Both the position numbers and the translations under genes were made by a program. Of a stretch of 64,000 nt of DNA, positions 17,645 to 63,077 are shown piece after piece. This stretch comes from Mytilus galloprovincialis (taxonomy: Eukaryota > Mollusca > Bivalvia > Mytilida > Mytilidae). The notes beneath the pieces were generated by a model, which was given only the letters and a program-made list of their open reading frames with translations, was not told the origin of the DNA and made no database searches. Numbering within the stretch: the stretch's first letter is position 1; every line of letters begins with the position of its first letter. The stretch is taken from positions 16,270,863-16,334,862 of the forward strand of contig NC_134849.1 in assembly GCF_965363235.1 (NCBI RefSeq), given 5' to 3'.

Positions 17645-17880
17645 CAAACAAAAATCAAACCCAAGACCTCCAACACTCTAGGTGATCACGGTTACAAACT
17701 CAAGACCTTCAACACTCTATGCGTGCATGATCACAAATCCAAGATCTCCAACACTCTGGGCAAGCCCGATCTCAACCCTTAGTCCTCAAACACTCTTGGA
17801 AGCACTGTCACAAATCTAAGACCTCCAACACTCTAGGCGAGCACTGTTACAAACCTAAGACCTCCAACACTTTGGGCTTG
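17645..17880. repeat. Degenerate minisatellite, about 42-bp unit
   Basis: Six or so units built on AAGACCTCCAACACTCT followed by a variable TAGGCGAGCACTGTTACAAA segment. No coding potential seen. Confidence 0.75.
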
Positions 17881-42000: not shown

Positions 42001-45000
42001 AACGATAGGCAACTAAGAATCATAGAGATGTTATCATAGTATCGTGTAAAGTAGAATTTGAATTAGCTTTATTACTAGCTGCTTCAAATAAGACAATAAT
42101 ACTACAAAAGTGTTATTCTTTCAATTTTTTATGAATGACCTTTGACCCCAATTTTAAAAAAAATGCACCATATTTCACTTTTACGACCGGGAAAAATGGA
42201 ATCTACACATTTTTCCCTTTCGATTGATATATAATATAGCTGTGTGTTAGATAGGTGCATTAAAAATATTTTTTAGGTCTGAATGTCACTCGCCTATAAG
42301 ATTTACGAAAAAAGGTTAAAAATTGACTATAAAGGGCAATAACTCCTAAAGGTGTCAACTGACCATTTCAGTCATGTTGACTTATTTGTAAATCTTACTT
42401 TGCTAAACATTAATTCTGGTTACTGTTTATTTCTATCTATAATAATATTCAAGATAATAACCAAAAACAGCAAAATTTCCTTAAAATTACTAATTCAGGG
42501 GCAGCAAACCAACAACGGGTTATCCGATTCATCTGAAAATTTCAGGGCAGATAGATCTTCACCTGTTTAACAATTCTACCACATGTCAGATTTGCTCTAA
42601 ATGCTTTGGTTTTTGAGTTATAAGCCAAAAACTGCATTTTACCCCTATGTTCTATTTTTAGCCATGGCGGCCATCTTGGATGGTTGGCCGGGTCACCGGA
42701 CACATTTTTTAAACTAGATACCCCAATGATGATTGTGTCCAAGTTTGGTTTAATTTGGCCCAGTAGTTTCAGAGGAGAAGATTTTTGTAAAAGTTAACGA
42801 CGACGACCGGAAGCCGGACGCCAAGTGATGAGAAAAGCTCACTTGGCCTTTTAGGCCAGGTGAGCTAAAAATGGTAAAAGAATTTTAAATTTTAAATTTT
42901 AAAAGAAAAAATTTAATTACACCTTCCTTAACTTTATGATGATTCAGTATTATGTATTTAAGGAATGACTTATATTTTTTATGTCTATGAAGAAATAACA
43001 TAGCTGGTTATTTTAAAGTGTGCACCACATTTTTTATGTTATTTCAAATAGACAGATAAAATATTATAGTTATTTCTTATAATTTACATCCAAAATTAAA
43101 TTATTATTGTATAACAGGGTACAATTTCTCACATAGTTAAGTGAGTATGCATTATTCTTTTGATTGATTGATTGTCTGTGCCACTTTCAGCACTATAGGC
43201 TTATTTCATGTATTTGTGGCTCGGGTTTCTATCTCATTGATCAACACTATTCGATCTTTGTCCTTTTATCATTGAATTCAAAAAACATGAGTACCATTTT
43301 CATTGTGTTTTAAAACTTTTTTTGAAACATGCACATTTACAGTAAAATACATTTTCTTCATTTCATTCATGAAGATTTATCCTGCAATTAGGTGTCCTAC
43401 TATACAGATACAGCCCTACAGATATCACTTTAAAGCTCCGCCCACTGCCGGACTGAGTATTGTCTGTGTGACCTCAGAATGTGTATTCCCATTGCATTCC
43501 AATGACGATGACAATTGTCGATTTCAAAACTTGAATGTGTATGATTGTGTTACAAAATCAACCATGTCAATTTCAGCATGCATGTTTAGTGAATGTCAAG
43601 TCTGAAGCGTAGGACAACTCGTACACTTCTGTTTCAAATTTGACAATGTTTTGTTATTTGTTTTTACTGTTGAAATTAGTTGTTATGCTAAAATAGATAA
43701 TTATTCACCTTGAGCGATATATTATTGTTGACCATTCAAGATTCTTTTTTTGCAAACCCGGCTTCAGCGTAATGTGTGATTTTGATATTACTACGTGGGC
43801 CTCAAGGGATTACGATTGGAAAATAAATGCTTAATATGTTAGTTTTTGTGTCTTTCAAAACACTAACAATATACAGAATTAATTGCAGGATAAAGACAAT
43901 AACTGTTTAGTGTCTTTAAATATCAGCTGTATTTGTACTTGGCTCGAAACAGGTGTAGTAGCTCGCTAAAAACTCGCATACTCCTTGTTTCCTAGCCTGG
44001 GACAAATACAGCTGATATTTAAAGACACTAAACAGTTATTGTCTATATCAGGGAAAGTAGCGTTAATTAAAGTCATAAGAAACCTCAAATCAAAAAAAAT
44101 TAATGCATATGATTTTTATAACTCAATGGATAGTTTTCATTATAAAACTTATGTACATATACTTTTTTCTGAAGAAAATTCTTTAATTTATTCATATTTA
44201 GAAGAAGTTTACTTTATTTGAATAGCTTCCTTCCAGCAAGCTATTCCCCCGACATATTTCCGTATGCAAGGTGACCTCAGTGTGACCCATCTCGTAAAAA
44301 TCCGGTGACCACAATACGCATGGATGTCCTTAAAATAAACTATTATCTGAATTTACATGTTAAACACGTGCTCAATTTCCATGCTTTTTTGTTTATTTTT
44401 CGTCAATTGTTGACAAACAGGTGACAATCGTTAAACTTCGGCTTCAAAACACGAACTTTAATTACCTGCCATATTTTCACAACAACACTGACCGATTGAG
44501 AAAAAAAATTGACAATTATACGAAATTTACACGAAAAAATGATAAATTCGAGCACAGAAGACGAAGTTTAGGATGTTTGTATGCATTAGTTCAAGAATTG
44601 GAAGAACATTATTTTTCACCGGTCACTCGTTTCTTATGACTTTAAGACTAGTAAAGTTTACAATTTTACTTGCGAGGGAAAAAAGTGGTCACAGCAAAAA
44701 TTTCCACAACCCTGTTTTAATTCCCTAAAAATTTCTCTTCATCTCACCTTCTTAGATTTTTGTTGCATTGAAGATGATGGAGTCACTGTAGTATTAGGAT
44801 TCTTTTTTACTCTGCTTTTAGTGTCTTTTTCTTCATCTGAGTCCGAGTCTGATGATGAGGAAGATGAAGATGAATTAGATTTTTTTTGTTCAACTTTTCC
44901 AGTTTTTTTAGCCGGTGTTGCCTTTTTAGGGCTTGCCTTCTTGGGACTTGCCTTCTTAGGACTGGACTTTTTCACCGTGGTATTAGCTGTACTTTCCATT

Positions 45001-48000
45001 TCAGATGAGCTGGATGAATCAGAATCTTTCTCAGTGACTGTGACTTTTTTAACACTTGATTTATTTTGTTTACTTATTGCTTTCCCTGAATCTGACTGTG
45101 AGGAACTACTAGATTCCTTGGCTTTCTTGTCCTGTTTTGTCATTTTCTTACTCAGCTTTTTCACTTCTGCTACGGGTTTGATTAATTTATTGGATGTATC
45201 TTCTGAGTCGGAATCCGATGAACTACTTGAGTCTTCTAATTTTTTCTCTATTTTTTTAGATTTTTTATCGGACTGTTTGACTGTTGCCGATGGTGACTTC
45301 TTTGTTTTGGTAGTTGCCTCTTCTGAGTCAGACTCGGATGATGAAGAATCTGTACTATCTTTTTTAACTTTTTTCACCGGTGATGGAGCAACTTTTTTCT
45401 TTTTAGATTGTGGTGTATTTTTTCCATGTTCTTCACTACTTTCTAATGGCCTTTTCAATTTTTTCTTGGGTGTGATAATCTTTAAACTTTCAATAGTGGA
45501 TTTGACCTTCAATAGAAACATAATTACAATTTAATAAACTCAATATTCCAAAAGTTTTAAAATCTAATAATATCCAACAAATGACTGAAAAATATTAATT
45601 CACATAGGCATACATTAGCTGTTGTGAATGGTTCCTGTCTATATACTTTGGATTCAGTTACTTTCGTGGGTACCAATTTTCGTGGATTAAGATAAACTTT
45701 GCATTTTCGTGGATATTGTGATTTCATAGTTTTCTGAAAGTCTGCATTTAATCATACAGCAAATTTGCAATACGTTGAACATTTAAATTTGTGGTTTCCC
45801 TGTTCACACAAAATCCAGGAAAATTGGTATCCAAGGAATAATAATGAATCCACAGTATATATTATTTGGTTTGTCATAAGTCCGACTAAATGTTTTGTTC
45901 CAATAATTTCACATAGTCATACCAGGGCTTTATGTAGTTCCATATAAAGTAAAAGTTCTGCTCATTATAGAAGGCCTTGAATTTCTGCTCTTCAACTTTG
46001 TATTTTATTTGTACTTTTCAATCTTTTTGTGTCACTGATGAGTTTTATTCCAGAACAAGAATGTGTCCAAAGTATATGGATGCCCCACTTGCATTTTTGT
46101 TTGTCATTTGAAGACATAACCAAATATTCTTATAAATTATTTGATTCAAGACAGTTTTCAGAATATATATAGTAGCTTATACCTTTTCTTTTAACTTGCT
46201 TGCTGGCTGCAGTTTATCTGATAGTTTTGAGCTATGAATTGGTGTACTGGTACTAAGAAATTCATACTTGTCTGAGAGCTCCTCATCATCGTCCTCATCT
46301 TCACCTGGGTCGGATTTTACATCTCTGAGCTTATTCTAAAAATAAATCAACAAAAACATATAAAACCTTGCCTACTGAATCATAAGATAGATGTTAAGGG
46401 ATTGAAGTTAAGATTTTGGTAATGGTATATAAGTTAGAGTGAAAAAGTTAAATCTAATGTTTAAAGTACTTTCTTTACAAATTCAGATTTTTTTTTAAAT
46501 CAAAAAGCAGCTTTTTCAAATATTTTACATAAGAATTACAAGAAATTTGATCAAAGCTTATGTATAAATGTGTTTGTCAGAAAATAACGGAAAAAATATT
46601 ATAATGTACATGTGTGTTCAGTAATTAACAGGGCATCACATCTTGCAAATATTAATGTTAGGAATTTCTTGTTGTTGCATGGTTTTAAATGCTGTGGATT
46701 CATTTATTATTATTATTATAAGTAAATTGTGAGGAAATTTGCTTTTTGTTGAACACTTAATTTTGTGGTTCTCCTATACCCAGGAATTCGACAAACATAG
46801 GAATCTGGTTAGCAATAATGAATCCTCATTTATTAACCCTCTCAATGCTACACAAAAAAATAGAAAAATGGCTGCTGCTGCTGCATTTTTTTGTGTTCAT
46901 TCATTAGAACAGTACATTCCTTTTCAGACTGTTGTATCTTTTTTATTATAAGAGATACAGAGTAAGTTATTGCATGAAAAATGCTCAAGATGTTAGATAG
47001 TTATTTCAGTAAAATTTTTATCAGGTTACCTGCATTTTCAGGTAATTAACAGGTAAAAGGTGTAATTTATTACATTTGTGTTGAATTTTGAATAAAAACT
47101 ACTTTAAGTCTTCATCTATTTTGTTGTTTTATCTGCCATATAATAAAAAAGACACCAAATGCTCGATTCCGTAGCGTATGATGTAATCGTGGCACAAATC
47201 AGTGGCGCCATCCTCAAAATTTTCAGTCAACCTCCGTTTTCCCCCTTTTTCTACATCTCGTAATGATCTATCAAATCATATTTCCCACACGAATTGAATG
47301 TTATAAACACATTCAGATAACAAGAAACCGTTTAACTAATCCTCGTCGTCAGTTTCACCATAGAAATGCTGAAAAATTTCCATATTTACAGCTTCTTTTC
47401 CGATTTCCGCCATTTGCATTTGTCAAAATATTTGTTTTTATTTTCCTTCTACTGCATGATTTTACAATAAAAATTGCCGGGATTTTAAGCGCAAATGAGA
47501 CCTTGCATATCCTGGATTCATACAAGGAAAAATTAGAGAGGACCCAAATGAAAACCAAACGGTTTAAGAGTCCTTATGAAAAATCTGTTGTCATCGCGGC
47601 ATATGCCGTGTATAGCGTTGAAAGGGTTAAGTTTTGCATTCTGCAGATTTCTATAAAAAAATATATCGTCTCTGTTCCATCAACCTATGTGTACTATATT
47701 TTGGATCTTTTATTTAACAATTTACCTTTGATTTTACTGGACCACTGCTTGCTCCGGATACATTCCTAAACATAGAAAAAAATTATCATAAATAACAACC
47801 AAAAACAAGAATGTGTCCTCAGTACACGAATGCCCCTCTCGCACTATCATTTTTCATGTTCAGTGGACCGTGAAATTGGGGTAAAAACTCTAATTTGGCA
47901 TTAAAATTAGAAAGATCATATCATAGGGAACACGTGTACAAAGTTTGAAGTCGATTGGACTTCAACTTCATCAAAAACTACCTTGACCAAAAACTTAAAC

Positions 48001-51000: not shown

Positions 51001-54000
51001 AAATTCAAACAGACAGTACATGAATGTGTCCCCAGTACATGTATGCCCCATCCAAACTATCATTTTATATGTTCAGTGGAACGTGAAAATGGGGTAAAAA
51101 CTCTAATTTGGCATTAAAATTTATCATAAGGAATATGTGTACTAAGTTTCAAGTTGTTTGACTTGAACTACATCAAAATCTTAACCAAAAACTTTAACCT
51201 GAAGCGTGCCAAACAGACGAACGAACGGACGCATAGCCCAGAAAACATAATGCCTTCAAATGGGGCATAAAAATATTACAGTCATTCCTAATAATTTAAT
51301 TCTGAAATCTGTTTTTCAGGAGTAATTCATGATGGCTTGAGTCACATGACAAAATTATGTCTATGAGTTGATAGACACAAGCAGGCTTTTAGCCAATCAG
51401 AAGACGTCTTTCATCAATGCCCGTCCAAAACTAAATAACAAGTTAGTGACTAACACTTACAGATACTGTTTGATCTCAGACTGCTTTTTTATCGCCACTT
51501 TTTTCCTCTGCGCTATTTTCTGTAAAATAAATTATGTGAAATCAAAACACAAATGCATAGACAATGAAAGATTTTTAAGATATAATTTATGGAAGCCATA
51601 GATTTGTTGGAAATTAACACATGGCCTAGGCCGTGATATTCGAATTTTATCCTGAGCGTTAGCGAGGGATAAAATTAACGAATATCACGGCCCAGGCCAT
51701 GTGTAAATTTACAACAAATCTATGGCTTCCATGAATTATTTCAATTCTAATACGACAAATACGATCATTAAAAAACTGAAGCGATGATGGGTATACCGTG
51801 TGTGTGGCTGTTCTATTTTACCCACTGTTCGATAAATGTAAAACAAATCTAATAAACCTGCATGAATGATTTCTTAACCAACCGCTAGAAAAAAAAATGT
51901 GATTACTTTTTTTACTTCTCAGTAAACCCAACATTTGCAATTTTAGATTTGCATTTTTTATCGTAAGCTACCGTTAAATTCACTGTTGACATGTTGTAAC
52001 CAAGGAGCCGCCATGTTGACTTGCTGAAATCAGTAAATGTGCGTATATTGCAATAGAACAGAAAACAAGCAACACCTACCTCGATACTTTATTTTAATGC
52101 AATTGTATCCGAGTTTAGAAGGTAAACGCAATAGAAAAACCTTCAGCTTTGACGTTTTCATTCGTATGACGTCATGTTTTGAAATGATTTTAATGCGCAA
52201 AAATCATTTCTGGAATTTCGCGGAATTTTAATTTGTTTTGTTTTTGTCCATTTTTCCGTTCTCTTATGTGTACATTCTTTTTGTTATGCATCAGAATCAG
52301 AATAAATGTTCTGTAGGGTTTTATTCAATTGTAATTGTTAATAGCGAAATCCACAACCGTTTACACATAGGTTACGATACATGTGGATTTACGTGGGAGG
52401 CATATTTAAACAGCCATTTGTGTACATCTTGGAGTCTGCGCTAAGTATAGATATATCGAGAATTTTATCACAGTGTTGTTTACAAAGCGAAAGAAGCACG
52501 TCATATTAGAATGGCTAATATATTGTGAATCACCATGCAAATGGTCATTTTCACAGTCAGTAACAACTTTTTATTACATTAATATTTAATATGAAGATCT
52601 CTCACTTTTCTTGCAATAGCCAGAGCAGCTATGTGTCAGGGTAGCTTCTGCAGGCTAGCTATTGGTTAAAGGGTATTTGTATGTATCATATACAGTGTAA
52701 CCTGCCTAATCTGGCACCTTAGTATTCCAACATTCTGCTTTAACCGATACATTTTCATGGTTCCAAAATATGCCTATCCTCACAGAAAACCTGATTATTC
52801 TGACACCCTGCAGAATTTGACATTTTTTTTCTGGTCCCCTAGTGTGTAGGATAACATAGGTTACACTCTCACCATGATCAGACAGACTGGTAAATTGTTA
52901 ACTGTGAAACCACTGTGAAACCAAACAACAAAATTTTAAACATTGTTGAAACCGCTGAAATAACAAAACTAAGTTTTGCTGATAACGGACTATTTCTTTT
53001 TAAAGTGCTTAAAAATAGGAAAAAATAACCCTACTATATAAAAGAGGGACGAAAGATACCAAAGGGACAGTCAAACTCATAAATATAAAACAAACTGACA
53101 ACGCCATGGCTAAAAATGAAAAGGACAAACAAACAACAGCACACACAACACAACATAGAAAACAAAAGAATAAACATGAACTCCACCAAAAAACTAGTGG
53201 TGATCTCAGGTGCTCTGGAAGGGTAAGCAGATCCTGCTCCACATGTGGCACCCGTCGTGTTGCTTATGGGATAACAAATCGGATAAATAGTCTAAATTCG
53301 GTAGGTCACATTCATGAAAGGGAAGGGGATTGTAGTTACGACGTAAGGAACATATCCGATATCATTTGTGAAACGGTTATTCCATAACGGTCAACCAACT
53401 CGTGATGGCGTCCGTAAAATTTACGAAGGGATGATTTCAACTTCACCATTTGGAACTCTTGGTTTAATAGCTTCCTTGTGAGCAGCAACCCTCTATCAAG
53501 AAAATCATGATACGAAATGCAAGCACGGGAATATCGTATCAATTGGGAGATATATACCCTGTATGCAGGTGCTGCTGGAATGTTGCTACTTAGAAATGGA
53601 AAGTTCACAATTGGAAAGCTGAAATCATCTCTTTTGTCGTAAAGTTTTGTTTTCAACCGACCCTCATTGTCAATTTCTAGATGTAAGTCAAGATATGAGG
53701 CCGACTTAACTGTATCTGTATAAATTGTCCAAAGTACTCATCTTGTCTTATCTCAGTGGCAAAAATTACTGACCCTTTTAACTTTTTACTGTTGTTTATA
53801 GTTTCTTTCTCTACTATCATAGTTTTCATAATCATTTAAACCCAACTTATTTTTACTGATACCTAATTTCTACACTTAACTCTATCTTGCCAACGTTGTA
53901 GTGATTTCTGGAAGCATTGAAGATTCAGGTTTACATATAACAATTTATTTTCTCATTTTTAAAAATTTGTCTGGTAAATTTATTCCTAATTGGTGTGTAG

Positions 54001-57000
54001 TTCAGAAATCAACATACCTCTTTTCTTTCATTCTCCTGTTTAATTACGTTCATTTCATATATCTCCCTTTCATCTTCTGGTAAACTCTGTAAAAATCTTT
54101 CATATTCCTCTAATTTCTGTTTTGTGATCTAAAAAGTTATTTAATAAAAGCAATGATCAATCTCTACTATTTTTTCACATTATCAGTGTTCTTCAGAGGG
54201 CTTTAAAACACTATGGTACCCTTGTGCTATATTTTCTACCATGATGCTATCTTAGATGATTTTATATTAAAATGTATAGGGACTGTTATGTTATATTTTT
54301 GGGAAATCCAGTGTTATGTTAATATCCATGGTGCTTTTTGAAAATTCTGAGGAGAACACTGCATTATTAAAATGATTAAGGAACCAATTGAAATTTAAAA
54401 TAGCAAAATTAATGTATTTCAATGCACCAGTATGACAAGCCCATAAATATAAGAAAATGGAAACTTAAGTCAACTGTGGTTGTCATTGTTGATGGGGTTC
54501 ATAAGGTTTCGTTTTTCTCAGTTCTTATATAAATTAGACTGTTGGTTTTCCCGTTTGAACTGTTATACACATGTCATTTTGGGGCCCTTTATAGCTTGCT
54601 GCTCAGTGTAGGGCCATGGATAACTGCTGAAGACCATACTTTGACCTATAATGGTTTACTTTTACAAATTGGTATTTGGAAGGAGAGTTGTCTCATTGGC
54701 AATCATACCACATCTTTCTATCTCTACTGTGGATTCATCTATTTTGTTGGGTACCAATTTTTGAGGATTAAGGAAAACTTTATGTTCTTGGATATTTAAT
54801 TTTGAGGTTTTACTGAAATCTCCATACAAGCTTATAGAAATTTTTTAATTTGTTGAACATTTAATTACGTGGTTCATTTGTACCCAGGAAATCAGTAAAA
54901 AATTGGTATCCCACAAATAATAAGAAATCCACAGTAATTACCTTTAGAGCTTCATCAGTGTATTTTTCTTTCTCCTGCTCACTTAGATTATATCTAATTA
55001 CCTTTAGAGCTTCATCAGTGTATTTTTCATTCTCCTGCTCACTTAGATTATATCTTATTACCTTTAGAGCTTCATCAGTGTATTTTTCTTTCTCCTGCTC
55101 ACTTAGATTATATCTAATTACCTTTTGAGCTTCATCAGTGTATTTTTCTTTCTCCTGCTCACTTAGATTATATCTAATTACCTTTAGAGCTTCATCAGTG
55201 TATTTTTCTTTCTCCAGCTCACTTAGATTATATCTAATTACCGTTAGAGCTTCATAGAGTATTTTTCTTTCTCCTGCTCACTTAGATTATATCTAATTAC
55301 CTTTAGAGCTTCATAGAGTATTTTTCTTTCTCCAGCTCACTTAGATTATATCTAATTACCTTTAGAGCTTCATAGAGTATTTTTCTTTCTCCTGCTCACT
55401 TAGATTATATCTTATTACCTTTTGAGCTTCATCAGTGTATTTTTCTTTCTCCTGCTCACTTAGATTATATCTAATTACCTTTAGAGCTTCATCAGTGTAT
55501 TTTTCTTTCTCCAGCTCACTTAGATTATATCTAATTACCGTTAGAGCTTCATAGAGTATTTTTCTTTCTCCTGCTCACTTAGATTATATCTAATTACCTT
55601 TAGAGCTTCATAGAGTATTTTTCTTTCTCCAGCTCACTTAGATTATATCTAATTACCTTTAGAGCTTCATAGAGTATTTTTCTTTCTCCTGCTCACTTAG
55701 ATTATATCTAATTACCTTTTGAGCTTCATCAGTGTATTTTTCTTTCTCCTGCTCACTTAGATTATATCTAATTACCTTTTGAGCTTCATCAGTGTATTTT
55801 TCTTTTTCCTGCTCACTTAGATTATATCTAATTACCTTTAGAGCTTCATAGAGTATTTTTCTTTCTCCTGCTCACTTAGATTATATCTAATTACCTTTTG
55901 AGCTTCATCAGTGTATTTTTCTTTCTCCTGCTCACTTAGATTATATCTAATTACCTTTAGAGCTTCATCAGTGTATTTTTCTTTCTCCAGCTCACTTAGA
56001 TTATATCTAATTATCGTTAGAGCTTCATAGAGTATTTTTCTTTCTCCTGCTCACTTAGATTATATCTAATTACCTTTAGAGCTTCATAGAGTATTTTTCT
56101 TTCTCCAGCTCACTTAGATTATATCTAATTACCTTTAGAGCTTCATAGAGTATTTTTCTTTCTCCTGCTCACTTAGATTATATCTAATTACCTTTTGAGC
56201 TTCATCAGTGTATTTTTCTTTCTCCTGCTCACTTAGATTATATCTAATTACCTTTTGAGCTTCATCAGTGTATTTTTCTTTTTCCTGCTCACTTAGATTA
56301 TATCTAATTACCTTTAGAGCTTCATAGAGTATTTTTCTTTCTCCTGCTCACTTAGATTATATCTAATTACCTTTTGAGCTTCATCAGTGTATTTTTCTTT
56401 CTCCTGCTCACTTAGATTATATCTAATTACCTTTAGAGCTTCATCAGTGTATTTTTCATTCTCCTGCTCACTTAGATTATATCTAATTACCTTTAGAGCT
56501 TCATCAGTGTATTTTTCTTTCTCCTGCTCACTTAGATTTTATCTAATTACCTTTAGAGCTTCATTAGTGTATTTCTCTTTCTCCTGCTCACTTAGATTAT
56601 ATCTAATTACCTTTTGAGCTTCATCAGTGTATTTTTCTTTCTCCTGCTCACTTAGATTATATCTAATTACCTTTAGAGCTTCATCAGTGTATTTTTCTTT
56701 CTCCTGCTCACTTAGATTATATCTAATTACCTTTAAAGTTTCATAGAGTATTTTTCTTTTTCTCCCTCACTAAGATTATATCTTAATTACCTTTTGAGCT
56801 TCCTCAGCGTATTTTTCTTTTTCTCCCTCACTCAGATTTTTCCAATCTTCTCCATTCTGTCTCATGGCATCGTTGCTTTGTATTTTGCCTTTCAGTTTGT
56901 GCAAGTTTTGAGATGTGAACACTTGAAAAGCTGACCTGAAAACAAAAAGAATGTGTCCATAGTACACAGATGCCTCACTTGCACTATCTTTTTCTATGTT

Positions 57001-60000
57001 CAGTTGACCCTAGCCTGTAATTGCGATAGAGTACAACAAGAGGCTGTCACAACGACAGCAAACCGGATTTATTAACATTTATTTGTGTCCTGCCAATATC
57101 ACAAGAACCATAACAGATGAACGGTGAAAGTGAAAATCGTCAATATCAAATTTGACCTCCATTTTGTCATCAGTATCAACATATTAAAATTTGAAAAGCT
57201 TAGGTTGAATGGTTCATGAGTAAATGCAACAACATGAATGGAAACGCCATTTTTCGATCTTTCAAGCACCATAACTCCTGAACGGTAAAAGTCAAAATCG
57301 ACATTATTGAACTTGACCTCCATTTTGTCATCAGTAACAACATATTAAAATTTGAAAAGCTTTGGTTTAACAGTTCATGAGTAAATGCACGGACACGACT
57401 GGAAAAGCCATTTTTCACTCTTTCAAGAAACATAACTCCTGAACGGTAAAAGTCAAAATCGTCATTATTGAACTTGACCTCCATTTTGTCATCAGTAACA
57501 ACATATTAAAATTTGGGAAGCTTTGGTTGAACAGTTCATGAGTAAATGCACAGACACGACTGGAAATGCCATTTTTCAATCTTTCAAGAACCATAACTCC
57601 TGAATGGTAAAAGTCAAAATCGTCAATATTGAACTTGACCTTCATTTTGTTGTCTGCAACAACATATTAAAATTTGAAAAGCTTTGGTTGAAAGGTTCAT
57701 GAGTAAATGCACGGACAACATTTGGTTGCCGCCCGCCCAGCCGCCTGCCGTACATCCCCAAACCAATAACCTACATTTTTGTCACAAAAATCCGGTTAAA
57801 AATGATTTATGATTGAAACTAATAGGGACAACATTGATGTGTTTCTCTACGAAATTTAAAAGGGAACCAGTCGATCTTTTGAGTTATAATTTTATGATGC
57901 ATGGAATGAAAATTACCCCTGATGATGTTTTTTTATATTTTCTATTTATTCTATTCAGTCAGTTAAGACGTCTGAATTTGGATGTGAATTTCTGACGGCT
58001 TCCATACAGTTGTTATCTAAATAAAATTAAAGTTAAGAATCTAGTTTTGAATAGTACAAAAATCAACAACTATTCAATAAAAAAACCCACAAAAACACAG
58101 ATGGAAATTAAAAAGCCAATTGTTCATGAACAATTGAAAGGTCTTTCCTTTTTTTTCTTTTATTGGTAGCCTTCTGAGTTAAAAAATATATGGTTGCTAA
58201 GGACTTTTATGTTCATAACAAGTGGTTGCTAAGGACAAAAATCATTCCTAAGGATAAAAATATTATTTCCAGTATTAAAAAATTCATATGTACTATTCAA
58301 AGTTTTTAAAGTTAAAAAAATAAGTGATTGCTTAGGACTTATATGACACTGCTAGGGACAAAAATGTCAATTCCAGTATTAAACATTTCATATTTATATT
58401 ATTCATAGCCTTCTAAATCCAAAAATATATGGTTGCTAAGGTGTTTCATGTCGTTGCTAGGGACTTTGACCTCTGATCTTGACCTAACTTTGTAGATCTT
58501 CTTATGCTGAACATTTTTGCAAGTTTCTTTCTATCTCTAACCTCTTTTGGGTTATAAGCGAAAAATCATCATTTCGAACCTAAAAAACAGTTTTCGTGCA
58601 CTAGGTCCATAATAGTTGGTCCAATAATTTTGAACCCAACATAACAAATGTAGATCTGGACAACACACATTTTCTCTGTTATATTTTATCTTTTACGGTT
58701 ATTGAGTAAATCCGATAACAAGCTAATTTTCGTAGTCATGTAAATTGATGATCATCAAATTGGTGAAGATCCTATATGTAGCTACAACTTACGGTTGATG
58801 AGTTTTAGTGGCCAACCAACATCGGTTAATTTTTGAAGGGGCATAACCCTACCAATGAGTCGTTGAATCTTTTAAATCCATATGTAATGAAGAACCAGGG
58901 TCTGTTCCTGAACAAATTCCACCCTTTGTTTTTTTCTACCTATTATGGTTACGGAGTTAGAATGATAACAAGGTTTTCAGTGTAAGGGGAGATAACCCTT
59001 ATAAGCACAGAGAAAATATAGCAAATATATAACATCTACACATGGTGAATCCATATGTTGAAAAAGCTTTACCTCGGTACAAAATACAGTTTATCAGTAA
59101 ACATTCACCATCTTATATAATAAGTGGTTGGCATTTAACTGTGAAATTAACGCAATTTCTAATATGAAATATGAGAACATAGATTTTATAATAATATTGG
59201 TTCAGAATATTTACCCTTACCATGTAAGGCCTGTAATATTACGGCCGTACCCAAAACACAATTTTTTGGCTCTATACATTTTGAGGTCAAGTTATGCCAT
59301 TTTTTTAAAAGTGAATGCATGTTTCCTTAATCTTACTCTTTATTGTCATATTTCTCAGTTCAAATGTTCATAGTGAGCTCAAATATGAACTTCCAAAATA
59401 GAGATCAGACAAAACTGTTTTTTTGTAGGGGTGTGTTTCCCTTCAAGGTCGGATACAGGAAGTTCTGAGGCCTTAAACTTTTATAAATAGTGTAAACCAG
59501 AGGGCATTTAAGTACTGATCATGTTTATTTTGAAATATGCAAAGACAACCACTATTTCTGGTTGGGGTTCCAGTTACAGCAGTGTTCTAGGATTCCCATT
59601 ACCCGTTACCCGGGGTAAGTGGATTAGGACAACGGGTAAGTCATTTTTTAGCCTTTGTCACCCGGTGGTAAGTCAATTTTCAAGTTCGGGGAAGCAGAAA
59701 AACTCTTGAAATTTCCCGGTCCTCTTCAATTTTCCCATATCTGCTTTTTATTTTTATTAAATCACGAGAAAAAACTTTGATAAAAGATCGAAGATTTTGT
59801 CGATGTCTATCGGCGCTTTTATTCAAGCACTCGTTTACTAGGTGTAATCAAGCGCAAAAGAGACCACATTCTTCTATCATTCTAAAAGTCGGTCACGGTG
59901 TCGGTAAAATCGGAAAATCCGGATTGATAACTGGTGCTTAAATCAGGACATAAACGATTTTTTTTCTTGTCATCGGAGGAAAATAAACTTACAGTTGCAT

Positions 60001-63000
60001 TTATTATAGCTCTTTATAAATGACATAGTAATAACTATAACATATTTGTCAAATTTAGTAAGAAATCGTTTTTTTTGCGCCGTCCGCATTGGTTGGCGGA
60101 TTTAACTTTTAGATGTGGGTAAGTAATTTTTTTATTGATCTTACCCGTGGTAAGTCAAGGTGCCAAAAAATCCTAGAACACTGTACAGAAAAAAAATCAG
60201 AAATTTCAGATTTTTTGTGCAAATGACCTTCTTTAAACTGGTGTGCACAGACTGTCAGATCAGTTTCACTCCAAACTAAGAACTGCTGTGAGTAATGTGT
60301 TCAATGGGTTCCACTCTACATGTAGACTACAGTAGGATATATCTATTGGCATCCTTCAGACTTCCAGGTCAAGAAAAAGGACGAAAATATAAAATAGAAT
60401 TTTTTTCTGAAGAGTCTTTATTTTATAAAAATTGTACCATTTCTGAGTTACCTTCCTTTAATACATAAAGTTGAAAAATAATCAAATCAAGCAAAAATAT
60501 TCTTCTATTCTTAAATTCCAATAATTGGTTCTCTTTAATTTCAAATGAAAATACTTCAACTTTGATTTGGAGACTTAAATAATAAGTTCATCCTTGAATA
60601 GCATACAAAATATAATTGCCTGAAACATTTTTAAATTTGAATTTCCGTGTGTAATTAATTTTGTACAGCCCAAGATCTGCATGAGCTGTAAATAATTATG
60701 TTATGCCCAAGTACTGCATTTTCTGTTACTAGTGTTCGTAATTTTGCACAGCCCAAGGTCTGCATTATCTGTACAATGCTGTAGTTAATTTTGTATAGCC
60801 AAATATATGCGTTAATTATTACTAATTTAGAACAGCCCAAGGTCTGCATTAACTATTAGTAATTTTGTACAGCCCAAGGTGTGCATTAACTGTTAGTAAT
60901 CTTGTACAGCCCAAGGTCTGCATTAACTGTTAGTAATTTTGTACAGCCCAAGGTCTGTTTAAACTATTACAGTAATTTTGTACAGCCCAAGGTCTGCATT
61001 AATTGTTAGTTATTTTGTACAGCCCAAGGTCTGCATTAACTGTTAGTAATTTTGTACAACCCAAGGTCTTTTTAAATTATTATAGTAGTTTTGTACAGCC
61101 CAACGTCTGCATTAACTGTTAGTAGTTTTGTACAGTACAAGGTCTGTTTAAACTATTAGTAATTTGTACAGCCCAAGGTCTGCATTAACTGTTAGTAATT
61201 TTGTACGGCCCAAGGTCTGCATTAACTGTTAGTAGTTTTGTACAGCCCAAGGTCTGCATTAACTGTTAGTAATTTTGTACAGCCCAAGGTCTGCATTAAC
61301 TGTTAATTTTGTACAGCCCAAGGTCTGCATTAATTATTAGTAGTTTTGTACAGCCCAAGGTCTGCATTAACTATTAGTAGTTTTGTACATACCAAGGGGT
61401 GAGATTTTTAAATAACTATGCATAATTTTTGTAGTCACTAATATATATTATTCATTTAAATTAACACAAAGACTTACGTTTTTGTTGGCTTCTTTAAAAC
61501 TGGTGCTGTTGTCTGATTAGAAAAAAATGAAAATAAACATAAGGTAATAAATACTTTGCATAGATCAAAACTGGATTCCATTCATAAAAATGTTTTTCAG
61601 TACACTAAATGATTGAGGTCTAGTACAGCACCACATTTAAATATATCAAAGAGAGCGACAGTAGTATACCGCTGTACATGTTTATTTAAAAAAAACAGAA
61701 ACCTAACTAAATCGGAGGGAAACACATCAACTATAAGAGGAACATTATAAACACCAAACTGTAACATGTGTAACAAAAACAAATGCCAACAAACATAGAA
61801 CTCATTGATATTTAACAACTGCCATATACCTGACTTGGTACAGTATTTTTTTTTAAATGACCTCCTGCTTATAAAATTTTTCATCCATACCTTAGCTGAT
61901 GCCTTGGCTAAATCTTGTGCTACTTTTTCAGCTTTCTTTTTCCACTTGTTCTTTTTTTCTTCACTCAAGCTCTTCCATTTCTTTAGGTAGTGCTCATGAG
62001 CAGCATCACCACTTCCCTGAATACATTTAAAATACATTACAGCAGAATGCAATGGGTGTGTAGGTAAAGGTAAAATCTCCAGTTAGCCAGCTTGTTAGCT
62101 GAACCGTGAAGTCATTGTTAGGTTAGGTATATTAACCTCCTTAGTAGTTTAGTCCTAAAGACAGATATATTGGTTATCTGATGGACTAGTCTACTCTTAC
62201 AGGAGGGTAGTTTACCTAACCTAATGACTTCACGATTCAGCTAGCAAGTAAGCTATAACAAATGGTATTACCTTTACCTATACACACTCAATGTATTCTG
62301 CTGTAAAAGTTTTGTATAATGCTAACATTTACACAAATTCAGAATTCATTATATCTGTCATTAATATATATCATTCAATAAGAATGAACTGGGGATTCAT
62401 TGATTTTGGGGTATTAATTTTTATGGATTGAGAAAAACTTTCATTTTCTTGGATATTTCATTTCCCAGTTTTGCAAAAGCCTTCATACTAACCTATAAAT
62501 TATATATATATTTGTGAACTGTTGAACATTGAAATTTGTGGTTCATCTGTGGAACATATTACACAGACATTGGCATGTAACGTGGAATAGTGAATCCACA
62601 CAGTATTTGATCATTTATACAATAAACAATTGAAATAAGTCTGGACATTTTCTTATTCAAATAGACCACTCTATACTATGAACAAATACACCTGGAAGTA
62701 CTTGGTGTAACTCTAGATCTACATTGTAACTTTGCCACTTATATTTCTTTGCATACTGTACATATATAAAATCATATTTTAAAGAATAACAAGTTATATC
62801 TTTTTATATTTAATTGGTCTACTAGTATTGATATGAAAATATGGTATTAGGTGTGAGCCAAGGCTCTGTGTTAAAGATTGTACTAGACCAATAAGGGTTT
62901 TCTTTTACAAATTTTGACTTGGATGGAGCGATGTCTCATTAATATTGGCACTCATACCACATCTTATTTTTTGAGACATTTCATATCTGAAGTGACAAAA

Positions 63001-63077
63001 ATTCCTCTGAAAGTCTTACCTCTTCAACATCTTCTTTAGCAACTCTGTTTTTGATATACAACTCCTGAGCCCTTTGA
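35992..63077 (-). CDS. UBTF: Gene B: UBF-like HMG-box nucleolar factor, 3' part
   Basis: The gene enters from the right edge and terminates at 35,992. The visible product has two HMG-box segments (exons at 63,020-61,891 and 61,478-54,018), a helix with FLQSLPEDERE after the second box, an acidic linker (GEDEDDDEE), a 253-residue Lys/Ser-rich exon, an acidic SDSDSDSGSE exon and a tail ending SSSSGGDSD. The box order, W-x2-LSE cores, the post-box FLQSLPEDE motif (FLESLPEEE in vertebrate UBF, from memory) and the SSSS-GDSD terminus point to the rRNA transcription factor UBF, which acts in the nucleolus with SL1/Pol I. The Lys/Ser-rich exon is more like NOLC1/treacle tails than the purely acidic UBF tail. 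N-terminal exons are outside the window; at least one exon between 47,766 and 54,017 is not found. Confidence 0.65.
36124..36294. mobile_element. Tigger/pogo-like MITE
   Basis: Ends CAGTGTAACATG and CAGGTTACACTG are inverted. It contains TATTTTGGAACCATG, shared with the copy at 52,693-52,870. CAGTGTAACC ends are typical of pogo/Tigger-type elements. It lies just upstream of the terminal exon of gene B. Confidence 0.6.
36450..36632 (-). mobile_element. Retroelement 3' end, solo copy (family R1)
   Basis: Contains GGACATACAAACTCATAAGG, CCAAACACTGTGGTGATCTC and GCAGATCCTGCTCCACATG. The ORFs covering it are this repeat in frame. Confidence 0.65.
37037..37126 (-). CDS. UBTF: Gene B exon: acidic SDSDSDS segment
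   Basis: A 30-codon phase 0-0 exon encoding VILRANPFTKGMV, then DSDSDSDSGSETEKTEK. It is preceded by a 7.6-kb intron that holds the nested Harbinger-like insertion. Both splice sites are canonical (TTGTAG and GTAATC). Confidence 0.7.
37157..37352. mobile_element. Foldback MITE, family M2
   Basis: Shares GACCGGGTTATAATCG-type and AATAATTTCTGAATTTACG blocks with 31,726-31,960. It lies immediately upstream of the exon at 37,037. Confidence 0.6.
37519..38229 (+). repeat. R2 repeat, left part of copy split by insertion
   Basis: Begins CTAGAGGCTCTAAAGAGCCT and GTGTCGCTCACCTTGG and runs to TTGTAAAATATTACTAA, where the Harbinger-like element is inserted. It continues at 42,297. Confidence 0.8.
39230..39600. 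repeat. Dispersed repeat fragments inside the Harbinger-like element
   Basis: Two blocks: TGCCTGTACCAAGTCAGGAA with TTCCTCTGAGTTCAG (cf. 2,144-2,230), and GTCACCAATGAGTCTTATGT with GCGAAACGCG, an inverted relative of 19,388-19,690. Confidence 0.5.
39965..40485 (+). pseudogene. Decayed coding stretch inside the Harbinger-like element
   Basis: Plus-strand segments look protein-like: YVPLPAVHALTDSIAHHL, FNAIEIINRWRVYHKLNK, then after a frameshift KTLKCPKPKISLFKCKQ, RLPTKKIAIVSRLPPSTSS and HVPKAGKQIHGVVTNKYG, ending at TAA. There are two in-frame stops and a frameshift. It is not recognised as transposase; it could be the element's second (Myb-like) gene or captured host sequence. Confidence 0.3.
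41071..41172. mobile_element. 102-bp MITE nested in the Harbinger-like element
   Basis: Ends GTCAGTTTCACAA and TTGTGAAACTGAC are exact inverse complements. An inner CGTAAGT...ACTTACG pair makes it a two-part hairpin. Confidence 0.65.
42297..42868 (+). repeat. R2 repeat, right part after insertion
   Basis: Resumes GATTTACGAAAAAAGG and runs through GCCATGGCGGCCATCTTGG and GACCGGAAGCCGGACGCC to the end hairpin GGCCTTTTAGGCC and AGGTGAGCTAAAAA. The family therefore begins and ends with small hairpins and carries GCTCACC/GGTGAGC at its two ends. Confidence 0.75.
43894..44044. repeat. Perfect 43-bp inverted repeat with 65-nt loop
   Basis: Arms 43,894-43,936 and 44,002-44,044 are exact reverse complements by base-by-base reading (AGACAATAACTGTTTAGTGT and its mirror at the far end). 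It is in a gene B intron. It could be a young foldback MITE or a structured RNA. Confidence 0.9.
44748..45506 (-). CDS. UBTF: Gene B long exon: Lys/Ser-rich repetitive tail
   Basis: A 253-codon phase 0-0 exon (acceptor CTATTGAAG, donor GTGAGA). Basic Lys-rich stretches alternate at least five times with SSSSSxSDSE blocks (for example DSSSSESDSEE and SSSSSQSDSG), and KKASP is repeated in tandem near the end. The serine-acidic blocks are casein-kinase-2-type sites; by analogy with NOLC1 and treacle they may bind Pol I or rDNA factors. The overlapping plus-strand ORF is a low-complexity shadow. Confidence 0.85.
45645..45860. mobile_element. Foldback MITE, family M1
   Basis: TTTCGTGGGTACCAATTTTC and CGTGGATTAAG at the left mirror AATTGGTATCC and AATGAATCCACAGTATA at the right. 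It is just upstream of the long gene B exon. Confidence 0.7.
46052..46115 (+). repeat. R5 repeat fragment
   Basis: Only the first 60 bp (AACAAGAATGTGTCCAAAGT, GATGCCCCACTTGCA) are kept. Confidence 0.5.
46183..46335 (-). CDS. UBTF: Gene B exon: acidic linker
   Basis: A 51-codon phase 0-0 exon: NKLRDVKSDPGEDEDDDEE, then LSDKYEFLSTSTPIHSS and LQPASKLKEK. The acidic run is typical of nucleolar factors. The acceptor is a T-rich TTTTTAG and the donor GTATAA. Confidence 0.7.
46690..46832. mobile_element. Foldback MITE, family M1, shortened copy
   Basis: GCTGTGGATTCATTTATTAT and AATAATGAATCC are the mirrored ends. A piggyBac-like element abuts it at TTAA. Confidence 0.55.
46837..47626. mobile_element. 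piggyBac-like non-autonomous element, 790 bp
   Basis: TTAA flanks both ends (46,833-46,836 and 47,627-47,630). The termini CCCTCTCAATGCTACAC and GTGTATAGCGTTGAAAGGG are inverted with a few mismatches. TTAA duplication with CCC...GGG ends is diagnostic of piggyBac-type elements. No transposase; the 168-codon plus-strand ORF inside runs past its right end and is not a gene. Confidence 0.7.
47726..47765 (-). CDS. UBTF: Gene B small exon (Ser-rich linker)
   Basis: A 40-nt exon between acceptor ATGTTTAG and donor GTAAAT encodes NVSGASSGPVKSK. It ends in phase 0 (any other frame puts a stop at the start of the next exon), so it must be entered in phase 2. The exon at 54,018 ends in phase 0, which implies an unseen exon between them. 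It is short, so confidence is moderate. Confidence 0.45.
47808..48085 (+). repeat. R5 repeat, full copy
   Basis: Runs from AACAAGAATGTGTCCTCAGT through GGACGGACGAACGGACGCAC to TAGGTGGGGCATAAAAAAAG, in the intron beside the exon at 47,726. Confidence 0.75.
48470..48790. repeat. Repeat with recurring ATTCGTCA motifs
   Basis: Loose repetition of TTACCGTGATTCGTCA-like motifs (GATTCGTCAAAA, GTGATTGGTCAG, GTATTCGTCATG). The edges GGTAGTAAT and ATTACCACC are inverted, so it may be a degraded MITE. Confidence 0.4.
49381..50798. mobile_element. hAT-like non-autonomous element, 1,418 bp
   Basis: Ends CAGTGTTCTCCCCAG and CTGGGGAGAACACTG are exact inverse complements, flanked by the direct repeat CTTATAT (49,374-49,380 and 50,799-50,805). 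CAGTG termini suggest hAT, although the duplication is 7 rather than 8 bp. Near the left end is a perfect 24-bp palindrome (TAGCGTCGCGGT and its complement), then about four copies of ACGCTATAATTATT. No transposase seen. Confidence 0.7.
51010..51272 (+). repeat. R5 repeat
   Basis: GAATGTGTCCCCAGTACATG to ATGCCTTCAAATGGGGCATA, with AACGAACGGACGCATAG inside. Confidence 0.65.
51582..51739. repeat. Palindromic element with CGCT-rich centre, copy 2
   Basis: Near-perfect arms (ATGGAAGCCATAGATTTGTT and its complement at the far end; CATGGCCTAGGCCGTGATAT and complement) around TCCTGAGCGTTAGCGAGGGA. It forms the end of the dispersed element that continues to 52,500. Confidence 0.75.
51740..52500 (+). 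repeat. Dispersed element, partner of 24,890-25,585
   Basis: See 24,890-25,585. Shared blocks include GATACATGTGGATTTACGTG and AAGCGAAAGAAGCACG. The ORFs in it (52,037-52,444) follow the repeat and are not taken as genes. Confidence 0.55.
52693..52870. mobile_element. Tigger/pogo-like MITE
   Basis: CAGTGTAACCTGCCTAATCT at the left and TAGGTTACACTC at the right. Related in inverse orientation to 36,124-36,294. Confidence 0.6.
53036..53830 (-). mobile_element. Broken retroelement with RT C-terminal ORF (family R1)
   Basis: On the minus strand an ORF (up to about 53,728) includes SASYLDLHLEIDNEG, TKLYDKRDDFSFPIVNF, SNIPAAPAYRVYISQLIRY and VKLKSSLRKFYGRHHELVD, a reverse-transcriptase C-terminal region I remember from bivalves. 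Non-LTR versus Penelope-like affiliation is not resolved. It is followed by the R1 3' segment that occurs alone at five other places here. The copy is 5'-truncated and not functional. Confidence 0.7.
54018..54128 (-). CDS. UBTF: Gene B exon: post-box helix
   Basis: A 37-codon phase 0-0 exon. It encodes ITKQKLEEYERFLQSLPEDE, then REIYEMNVIKQENERKE, highly charged and helical. YERFLQSLPEDE parallels the segment after an HMG box in vertebrate UBF. Confidence 0.75.
54184..54361. mobile_element. hAT-like MITE, 178 bp
   Basis: Ends CAGTGTTCTTCAGAGG and CTGAGGAGAACACTG are inverted, flanked by CATTAT on both sides. Related in its termini to 49,381-50,798. Confidence 0.6.
54520..54715 (+). repeat. 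R3 repeat
   Basis: Runs from TTGGTTTTCCCGTTTGAAC through GGAGAGTTGTCTCATTGGCA to ATCATACCACATCTTTCT. Confidence 0.7.
54727..54937. mobile_element. Foldback MITE, family M1
   Basis: CTACTGTGGATTCATCTATT mirrors AAGAAATCCACAGTA. Its right end abuts the 60-bp tandem array directly. Confidence 0.65.
54938..56790 (-). repeat. Tandem array of an HMG-exon end plus splice donor, about 31 units
   Basis: Units of 60 bp (TTCATCAGTGTAT form) or 59 bp (TTCATAGAGTAT form). On the minus strand a 60-bp unit reads YNLSEQEKEKYTDEALK, then GTAATTAGA. This parallels the preceding exon's NLSEGEKEKYAEEAQK and its donor GTAATTAAG. Variant order repeats every eight units (about 475 bp; CCGTTAGAGC at 55,538 and its TCGTTAGAGC relative at 56,013; TTTTTCCTGC about 476 bp apart). 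The 60-bp units stay open; 59-bp units shift the frame. The array is probably intronic, but nearly every unit carries a candidate 5' splice site. Confidence 0.9.
56791..56935 (-). CDS. UBTF: Gene B exon: last HMG box
   Basis: It encodes SAFQVFTSQNLHKLKGK, a loop, then GEDWKNLSEGEKEKY and AEEAQK, a complete HMG-box core (hydrophobic helix 1, W-x2-LSE helix 2). It begins in phase 2 and ends in phase 0 at GTAATTAAG. The last 45 coding bases plus this donor are the template, or sister, of the tandem array that starts immediately downstream. Confidence 0.8.
56942..57006 (+). repeat. R5 repeat fragment
   Basis: AAAGAATGTGTCCATAGTAC and TATGTTCAGTTGACC only; starts 7 bp from the HMG exon. Confidence 0.5.
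57033..57800. repeat. Element with four 161-bp internal repeats
   Basis: CAAACCGGATTT near the left and AAATCCGGTTAAAAA near the right are inverted. The interior repeats a 161-bp unit about four times (AACTTGACCTCCATTTTGTC, GTTCATGAGTAAATGCA, CATAACTCCTGAACGGTAAA). Overlapping minus-strand ORFs simply follow the repeat. Confidence 0.75.
58140..59060. other. Intron with degenerate GGTTGCTAAGGAC repeats
   Basis: ATATATGGTTGCTAAGG recurs at 58,190, 58,210 and 58,430. 58,480-58,600 resembles the body of the R2 repeat (TTTGTAGATCTTCTTATGCT, GGGTTATAAGCG). No exon. Confidence 0.4.
59580..60183. mobile_element. hAT-like non-autonomous element, 604 bp
   Basis: Ends CAGTGTTCTAGGATT and AATCCTAGAACACTG, where the right end is the inverse of the left. 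The interior has TTACCCGGGGTAAGT and TTACCCGTGGTAAGTC near the two ends. A short TACAG direct repeat flanks it. Confidence 0.65.
60655..61390. repeat. 38-bp minisatellite, about 18 units
   Basis: Unit TTTTGTACAGCCCAAGGTCT then GCATTAACTGTTAGTAA. Central units are nearly identical, outer ones degenerate. It ends about 90 bp from the small exon at 61,478. Confidence 0.85.
61478..61512 (-). CDS. UBTF: Gene B small exon: linker into last HMG box
   Basis: A 35-nt exon between TTTCTAATCAG and GTAAGT encodes TTAPVLKKPTKT. It ends in phase 2, which joins precisely to the next exon to give KKPTKTSAFQVF, a typical K-x-P-x-SAF entry into an HMG box. Confidence 0.7.
61891..62016 (-). CDS. UBTF: Gene B exon: helices 2-3 of penultimate HMG box
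   Basis: A 42-codon phase 0-0 exon containing YLKKWKSLSEEKKNKWKKKA, the W-x2-LSEEKK core of HMG boxes, then EKVAQDLAKASAK. The acceptor AAATGTATTCAG lies only about 20 bp from a foldback MITE. Confidence 0.75.
62037..62304. mobile_element. Foldback MITE next to a gene B splice acceptor
   Basis: TACAGCAGAAT with GTAGGTAAAGGTAA at the left mirrors TTACCTTTACC and ATTCTGCTGTA at the right; inner arms GTGAAGTCATTGTTAGGTTA and TAACCTAATGACTTCAC also pair. It starts 20 bp from the acceptor of the exon 61,891-62,016. Confidence 0.75.
62385..62601. mobile_element. Foldback MITE, family M1, degraded
   Basis: GGGGATTCATTGATTTTGGG and GTGAATCCACACAGTA are the remnants of the mirrored ends. Confidence 0.55.
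62890..62968 (+). repeat. R3 repeat tail
   Basis: TTTTACAAATTTTGACTTGG and GGCACTCATACCACATCTTA. Confidence 0.55.
63020..63077 (-). CDS. UBTF: Gene B exon: start of penultimate HMG box
   Basis: It encodes QRAQELYIKNRVAKEDVEE and ends at donor GTAAGA in phase 0. One base before the first full codon shows that the preceding intron is phase 2; its partner exon is outside the window or not found up to 64,000. The segment matches helix 1 of an HMG box. Confidence 0.65.

Follow-up and report, generated by a model that had tools for sequence, protein, structure and literature searches.

The window, which is the whole stretch of 64,000 nucleotides analysed from Mytilus galloprovincialis contig NC_134849.1, contains on its minus strand an animal-type gene for an HMG-box protein. 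Seven exons with GT and AG borders join in one frame with a sole stop at the end, and the other two frames of the join contain 53 and 29 stops; the exons were picked visually among open stretches whose borders fit, so that their choice accounts in part for the single joined frame. In the order of transcription, the exons are:

63020..63077, minus strand: candidate exon X1 (58 nt), possible first half of an upstream HMG box, placed by frame and splice borders only
61891..62016, minus strand: exon A (126 nt), second half of the possible upstream HMG box (exon join; weak HMG match, E 0.018, below cut-off)
61478..61512, minus strand: exon B (35 nt), start of the HMG box (exon join)
56791..56935, minus strand: HMG-box exon C (145 nt), which encodes SAFQVFTSQNLHKLKGKIQSNDAMRQNGEDWKNLSEGEKEKYAEEAQK and is the source of the repeat unit (exon join and HMG_box match)
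54018..54128, minus strand: exon D (111 nt), end of HMG helix 3 and linker (exon join)
46183..46335, minus strand: exon E (153 nt), acidic linker (exon join)
44739..45506, minus strand: terminal exon (768 nt with the stop), Ser/Lys/Asp-rich tail (exon join)

Independent support for a gene model built in this way comes from the Pfam HMG_box match on the joined protein (residues 71-133, 34.1 bits, above the cut-off of 25.4), which begins in the last part of exon B, continues through exon C and takes in 12 residues of exon D. Matches to PDB sequences also span the C-D junction. Exon C, described in the original prediction as the last HMG-box exon, is indeed an HMG exon, but the box runs on into exon D and exon C is not the last to carry it. 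The best PDB sequence matches are spread over an SRY/HMGB1 fusion, TFAM and HMGB1, with UBF lower, so that they are compatible with several HMG subfamilies. The upstream HMG box on exons X1 and A scores 15.9 bits, under the cut-off, and no start of the gene was identified within the window. The Ser/Lys/Asp-rich tail presumably resembles those of nucleolar proteins. On the minus strand at 53339-53737 lies an open reading frame of 133 residues, which has no Pfam match at E 0.1 and which we take to be reminiscent of the end of a retroelement reverse transcriptase.

The intron between exons C and D begins with a large tandem array, whose features are:

56782..56793, minus strand: authentic donor AAG/GTAATTAAG, with G+1 at 56790 (exon join and donor count)
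56776..56778, minus strand: in-frame TAA, which stops any read-through beyond the authentic donor (exon join)
54935..56782, minus strand: array of 31 units in exon phase (GATATAAT...GTAATTA), 1848 nt (TRF and unit recount)
56724..56782, minus strand: unit 1, 59 bp, a mosaic of exon-like GGGAGAAAAAG and the 59-bp-type deletion (unit alignment)
55412..56363, minus strand: two adjoining 8-unit blocks of 476 bp (units 8-15 and 16-23), 474/476 identical (block comparison)
55115..55708, minus strand: two adjoining 5-unit blocks of 297 bp (units 19-23 and 24-28), 296/297 identical (block comparison)

The array is real. TRF finds it at 54935-56838 with a period of 60, 95% matches and 31.9 copies, a count that includes the authentic exon copy along with the array units. 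It lies directly after the HMG exon on the minus strand, inside the intron, and the recount in exon phase gives 31 complete units between 56782 and 54935, 19 of 60 bp and 12 of 59 bp, as foreseen by the original prediction of about 31 units of 59-60 bp; the exon and donor that it gave are likewise borne out by the exon join. Another phasing, in which the minus strand is cut at CTNAGTGAG, yields 32 pieces: 30 full units, preceded by the authentic exon copy, which measures 61 bp up to the next start, and followed by a final piece of 52 nt. By this phasing there are 14 distinct sequences among the 31 units, one of them distinct only through being cut.

All 31 units align over 60 columns to the last 53 nt of exon C and the first 7 nt of its intron. 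The unit consensus differs from the exon in 11/60 columns, and the authentic copy has one extra A relative to the units. The period of 60 falls within the unit size of 10-100 bp of a minisatellite spanning an exon-donor border, and each unit holds both the exon end and the intron start, as such a minisatellite does, with the first 8 nt matching at only 5/8. This level of match is reached by 6.6% of the 8-mers of the window, so that the alignment of these 8 nt is insignificant alone and they are possibly filler DNA. The last unit stops at GTAATTA, where the unique intron sequence CTGTGGATTTC begins.

Since each unit carries the whole donor, the intron has 30 further GT 5' splice sites. GT is kept in 30 of the 31 units and the exact authentic 9-mer AAG/GTAATT in 26, which agrees with the tens of near-identical 5' splice sites noticed earlier. 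Counted over all 32 pieces of the CTNAGTGAG phasing, the donor variants are AAGGTAATT (27 copies, one of them authentic), ACGGTAATT (two), AAGGTAATA (two) and ACGATAATT (one, with GT lost), so one array donor has no GT and four others vary in the 9-mer. Chance is no issue here, because all 27 minus-strand copies of AAGGTAATT in the window are confined to the exon and the array; the plus strand has a single copy. When two units were searched against the rest of the window with the array masked, no match was found at E up to 1. A 26-mer of the unit has 0 matches in viral_contigs and 0 in genome_contigs, which hold viral, bacterial and archaeal sequence, may omit records close to the window and say little on this point, and none of 4227 known RNA families is found in the window at the gathering score. 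An open stretch of 138 residues (54861-55277, minus strand) spans the last array units and runs into the intron, as expected from successive units of 60 bp, a multiple of three.

The origin of the array from an exon-donor segment is supported by the sequence, as the unit aligns to the exon end and donor and the last unit adjoins the unique intron exactly there. In the simplest reading, the ancestral intron would have started with GTAATTACTGTGG, and a segment over the exon-donor border, with 53 nt from the end of the HMG exon and 7 nt from the start of the intron, would then have been duplicated in tandem. The upstream copy would have stayed as the coding exon, and the extra copies would have expanded through slippage or unequal exchange, lately in blocks of 5 and 8 units. 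A seed segment ending in GATATAAT was dropped in favour of the GTAATTA end, since the last unit ends at GTAATTA. Unit 1, which adjoins the exon, retains some exon-like bases that are lost in later units. The 8-unit blocks and the 5-unit blocks, with identities of 296/297 and 295/297 for the latter, point to recent growth by blocks, presumably through slippage or unequal exchange. Two further tandem arrays, one of 161 bp (3.8 copies, 57102-57717, in the intron immediately before the HMG exon) and one of 37 bp (16.5 copies, 60786-61397, same intron), are counted toward the minisatellite reading. The array is best explained as a minisatellite born at the exon-donor border; in full, it is probably a minisatellite spanning this border and grown by slippage or unequal exchange, with donors that are mostly unused or yield truncated transcripts.

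The human CBS 31-bp VNTR is the closest precedent. In PMC2630376 it is given as c.1444_1467+7(16_21), with 24 nt of exon 13 and 7 nt of intron 13 in a unit that is invariably 31 bp and present in 16-21 copies, and a table in PMC1395315 places it at exon 13-intron 13. Both arrays have the donor border in each copy, with, by numbering, 24 nt of exon and 7 nt of intron in CBS and 53 and 7 nt in the 31 extra copies of the Mytilus array. Unlike the CBS units, which are always 31 bp, those of Mytilus are a mixture of 59 and 60 bp. The gene and the sequence are also different, and the CBS repeat is polymorphic in people, whereas the Mytilus array is seen in one sequence. In the Mytilus array an in-frame stop lies just after the first donor. 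Alternative splicing in the CBS repeat was reportedly described by Lievers in 2001.

Other systems share single features with the array. In potato RdRp, a new intron arose by tandem duplication across an intron-exon border (PMC4974935), and there too the splice signals are carried along; that case is, however, a single duplication on the acceptor side, with the new intron shown by RNA-seq, while in Mytilus the donor side is copied many times and is seen in genomic sequence. The duplicated-splice-site pre-mRNAs of the Eperon laboratory, used for U1 and site choice (PMC8724738), also have equivalent donors on one transcript, but they are laboratory-made with few sites and the Mytilus array is natural with 31. 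Intronic minisatellites occur in earthworm metallothionein genes, as stated in PMC12783039. In a literature search over titles and the openings of abstracts, mostly without subscription papers, no donor-spanning array beyond the CBS VNTR was found, and absence from print is not claimed. The kind of array is thus known, if rare, and the Mytilus array is a new, larger example of the CBS type.

Three other explanations bear on the same units. A real locus with fewer units, in which the repeated blocks are an assembly error, would account for the near identity of the 476-bp and 297-bp blocks, but it is very improbable, as one or two base differences remain between the blocks and 14 unit sequences are counted, including the one distinct only by its cut; an array with unique edges would stand regardless. 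The array could also extend the protein, as in the original prediction, by which the 60-bp units stay open in frame and use of a downstream donor could add 20-residue repeats. This does not hold, since 12/31 units are of 59 bp and frameshifted, one 60-bp unit contains a stop, and the authentic copy, of 61 bp, reads on from exon C as ...EEAQKVIKI-stop, with the TAA at 56778-56776, 12 nt past the donor. All 30 array donors lie beyond this TAA, so that read-through cannot lengthen the protein by repeats, VIKI-stop rules out a coding extension through downstream donors, and transcripts from array donors would be truncated, contrary to the proposed extension. With read-through blocked, in-frame addition of repeats needs an acceptor inside the array, by which internal units would be spliced in as in-frame cassettes of 20 residues (or 8 to 12) and lengthen HMG helix 3. 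There are 68 frame-preserving, stop-free AG-to-donor pairs 9-60 nt apart, and 15 of them yield an open 60-nt cassette such as VIRYNLSEQEKEKYTDEAQK, with phase 0 like exon D. Two open array stretches also score above the Pfam HMG_box_2 cut-off of 22.4 (25.0 and 23.4 bits), which is expected of copies of the HMG exon; their other Pfam matches are all below cut-off and were taken as composition effects. Against such cassettes, the pyrimidine fraction is 0.25-0.50 at all 68 candidate acceptors and 0.55-0.80 at six real acceptors, the terminal exon acceptor being left out of the scoring. Recursive splicing at the AG/GT unit borders is disfavoured in the same way as the in-frame cassettes: the frame allows it and AG/GT is present, but the acceptor context is poor. 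The variation among units has no codon-position bias either (5, 3 and 5 variable exon-derived columns at positions 1, 2 and 3), and a protein-extending array is extremely improbable.

The same variation bears on the explanation in which the array is a decoy or poison for splicing, where U1 at many donors would slow splicing or divert a fixed share of transcripts to stop-bearing isoforms and copy number would tune the output of the HMG gene. Among the 31 units 16/60 columns are variable, with 3/9 donor columns against 13/51 elsewhere (Fisher P 0.69), 13/45 exon-derived columns against 3/15 (Fisher P 0.74) and 1/8 linker columns against 15/52 (Fisher P 0.67). Neither the donor nor the exon-derived part nor codon positions 1-2 are depleted of variation among the 31 units, so that selection leaves no sign in what is a weak test with few independent changes, and the pattern lends no support to coding use or kept donors. 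Donor columns as variable as the rest count against a decoy, as do the donor that lost GT and the four that vary, and the sameness of the units is explained by recent block amplification alone. In its favour are the GT in 30/31 units with the exact 9-mer in 26, the exon-derived sequence copied beside each donor, the higher average predicted accessibility of the array donors over the authentic one and the truncated product expected from each of the 30 donors. The literature is in line with it: according to a review (PMC5188458), CBS activity is lower and homocysteine higher where the CBS VNTR has more repeats, and in another gene U1 trapped at a pseudo-5' site is able to block the authentic one (PMC6002489). 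The decoy is an unlikely explanation. Its version as a copy-number dial, in which the 30 array donors (26 with the authentic 9-mer) draw U1 and divert transcripts to stop-bearing forms, so that an array length that varies between individuals sets the dose of HMG-box protein, is quite unlikely.

Under the minisatellite reading, correct mRNA needs the first donor, 56790, in agreement with the joined frame and with the HMG match that spans the C-D junction. Most likely, the array donors are passive, or are used at low level and give transcripts truncated at VIKI-stop that would be NMD targets. By standard rules, truncation in HMG helix 3 with exons downstream would mark the mRNA for NMD. The main gap in the minisatellite reading is why the authentic donor should win. 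No local reason for it is visible, since its 9-mer is common to 26 units, its U1 consensus score of 7/9 is like that of the array copies and its predicted accessibility is lower than that of most array donors (mean unpaired 0.41, against a mean of 0.60 and a range of 0.15-0.73 in the array). Over the six donors of the gene the U1 consensus scores are 5-7, and three others also have 7/9. Structural masking of the array donors is on average not found in the accessibility prediction, with one array donor at 0.15. The rules from experiments with duplicated sites could favour a downstream copy.

The array may have a regulatory effect on splicing, and if its donors are used, gene output could change with array length. 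If the array is no more than a minisatellite, it adds a larger case to the CBS type and demonstrates that one intron may contain 26 donors with the same nine bases as the real one, and it is then a natural test of how the spliceosome selects one among many equal 5' sites.

On the plus strand of 54935-56838, where we know of no gene, the sequence of most units is TTTTTCTTTCTCCNGCTCACTTAG (N = T or A), which looks like a good 3' splice acceptor and occurs in 25 exact copies in the window. Apart from these features, a diverged tandem array of 39/116 bp lies at 17656-17877.
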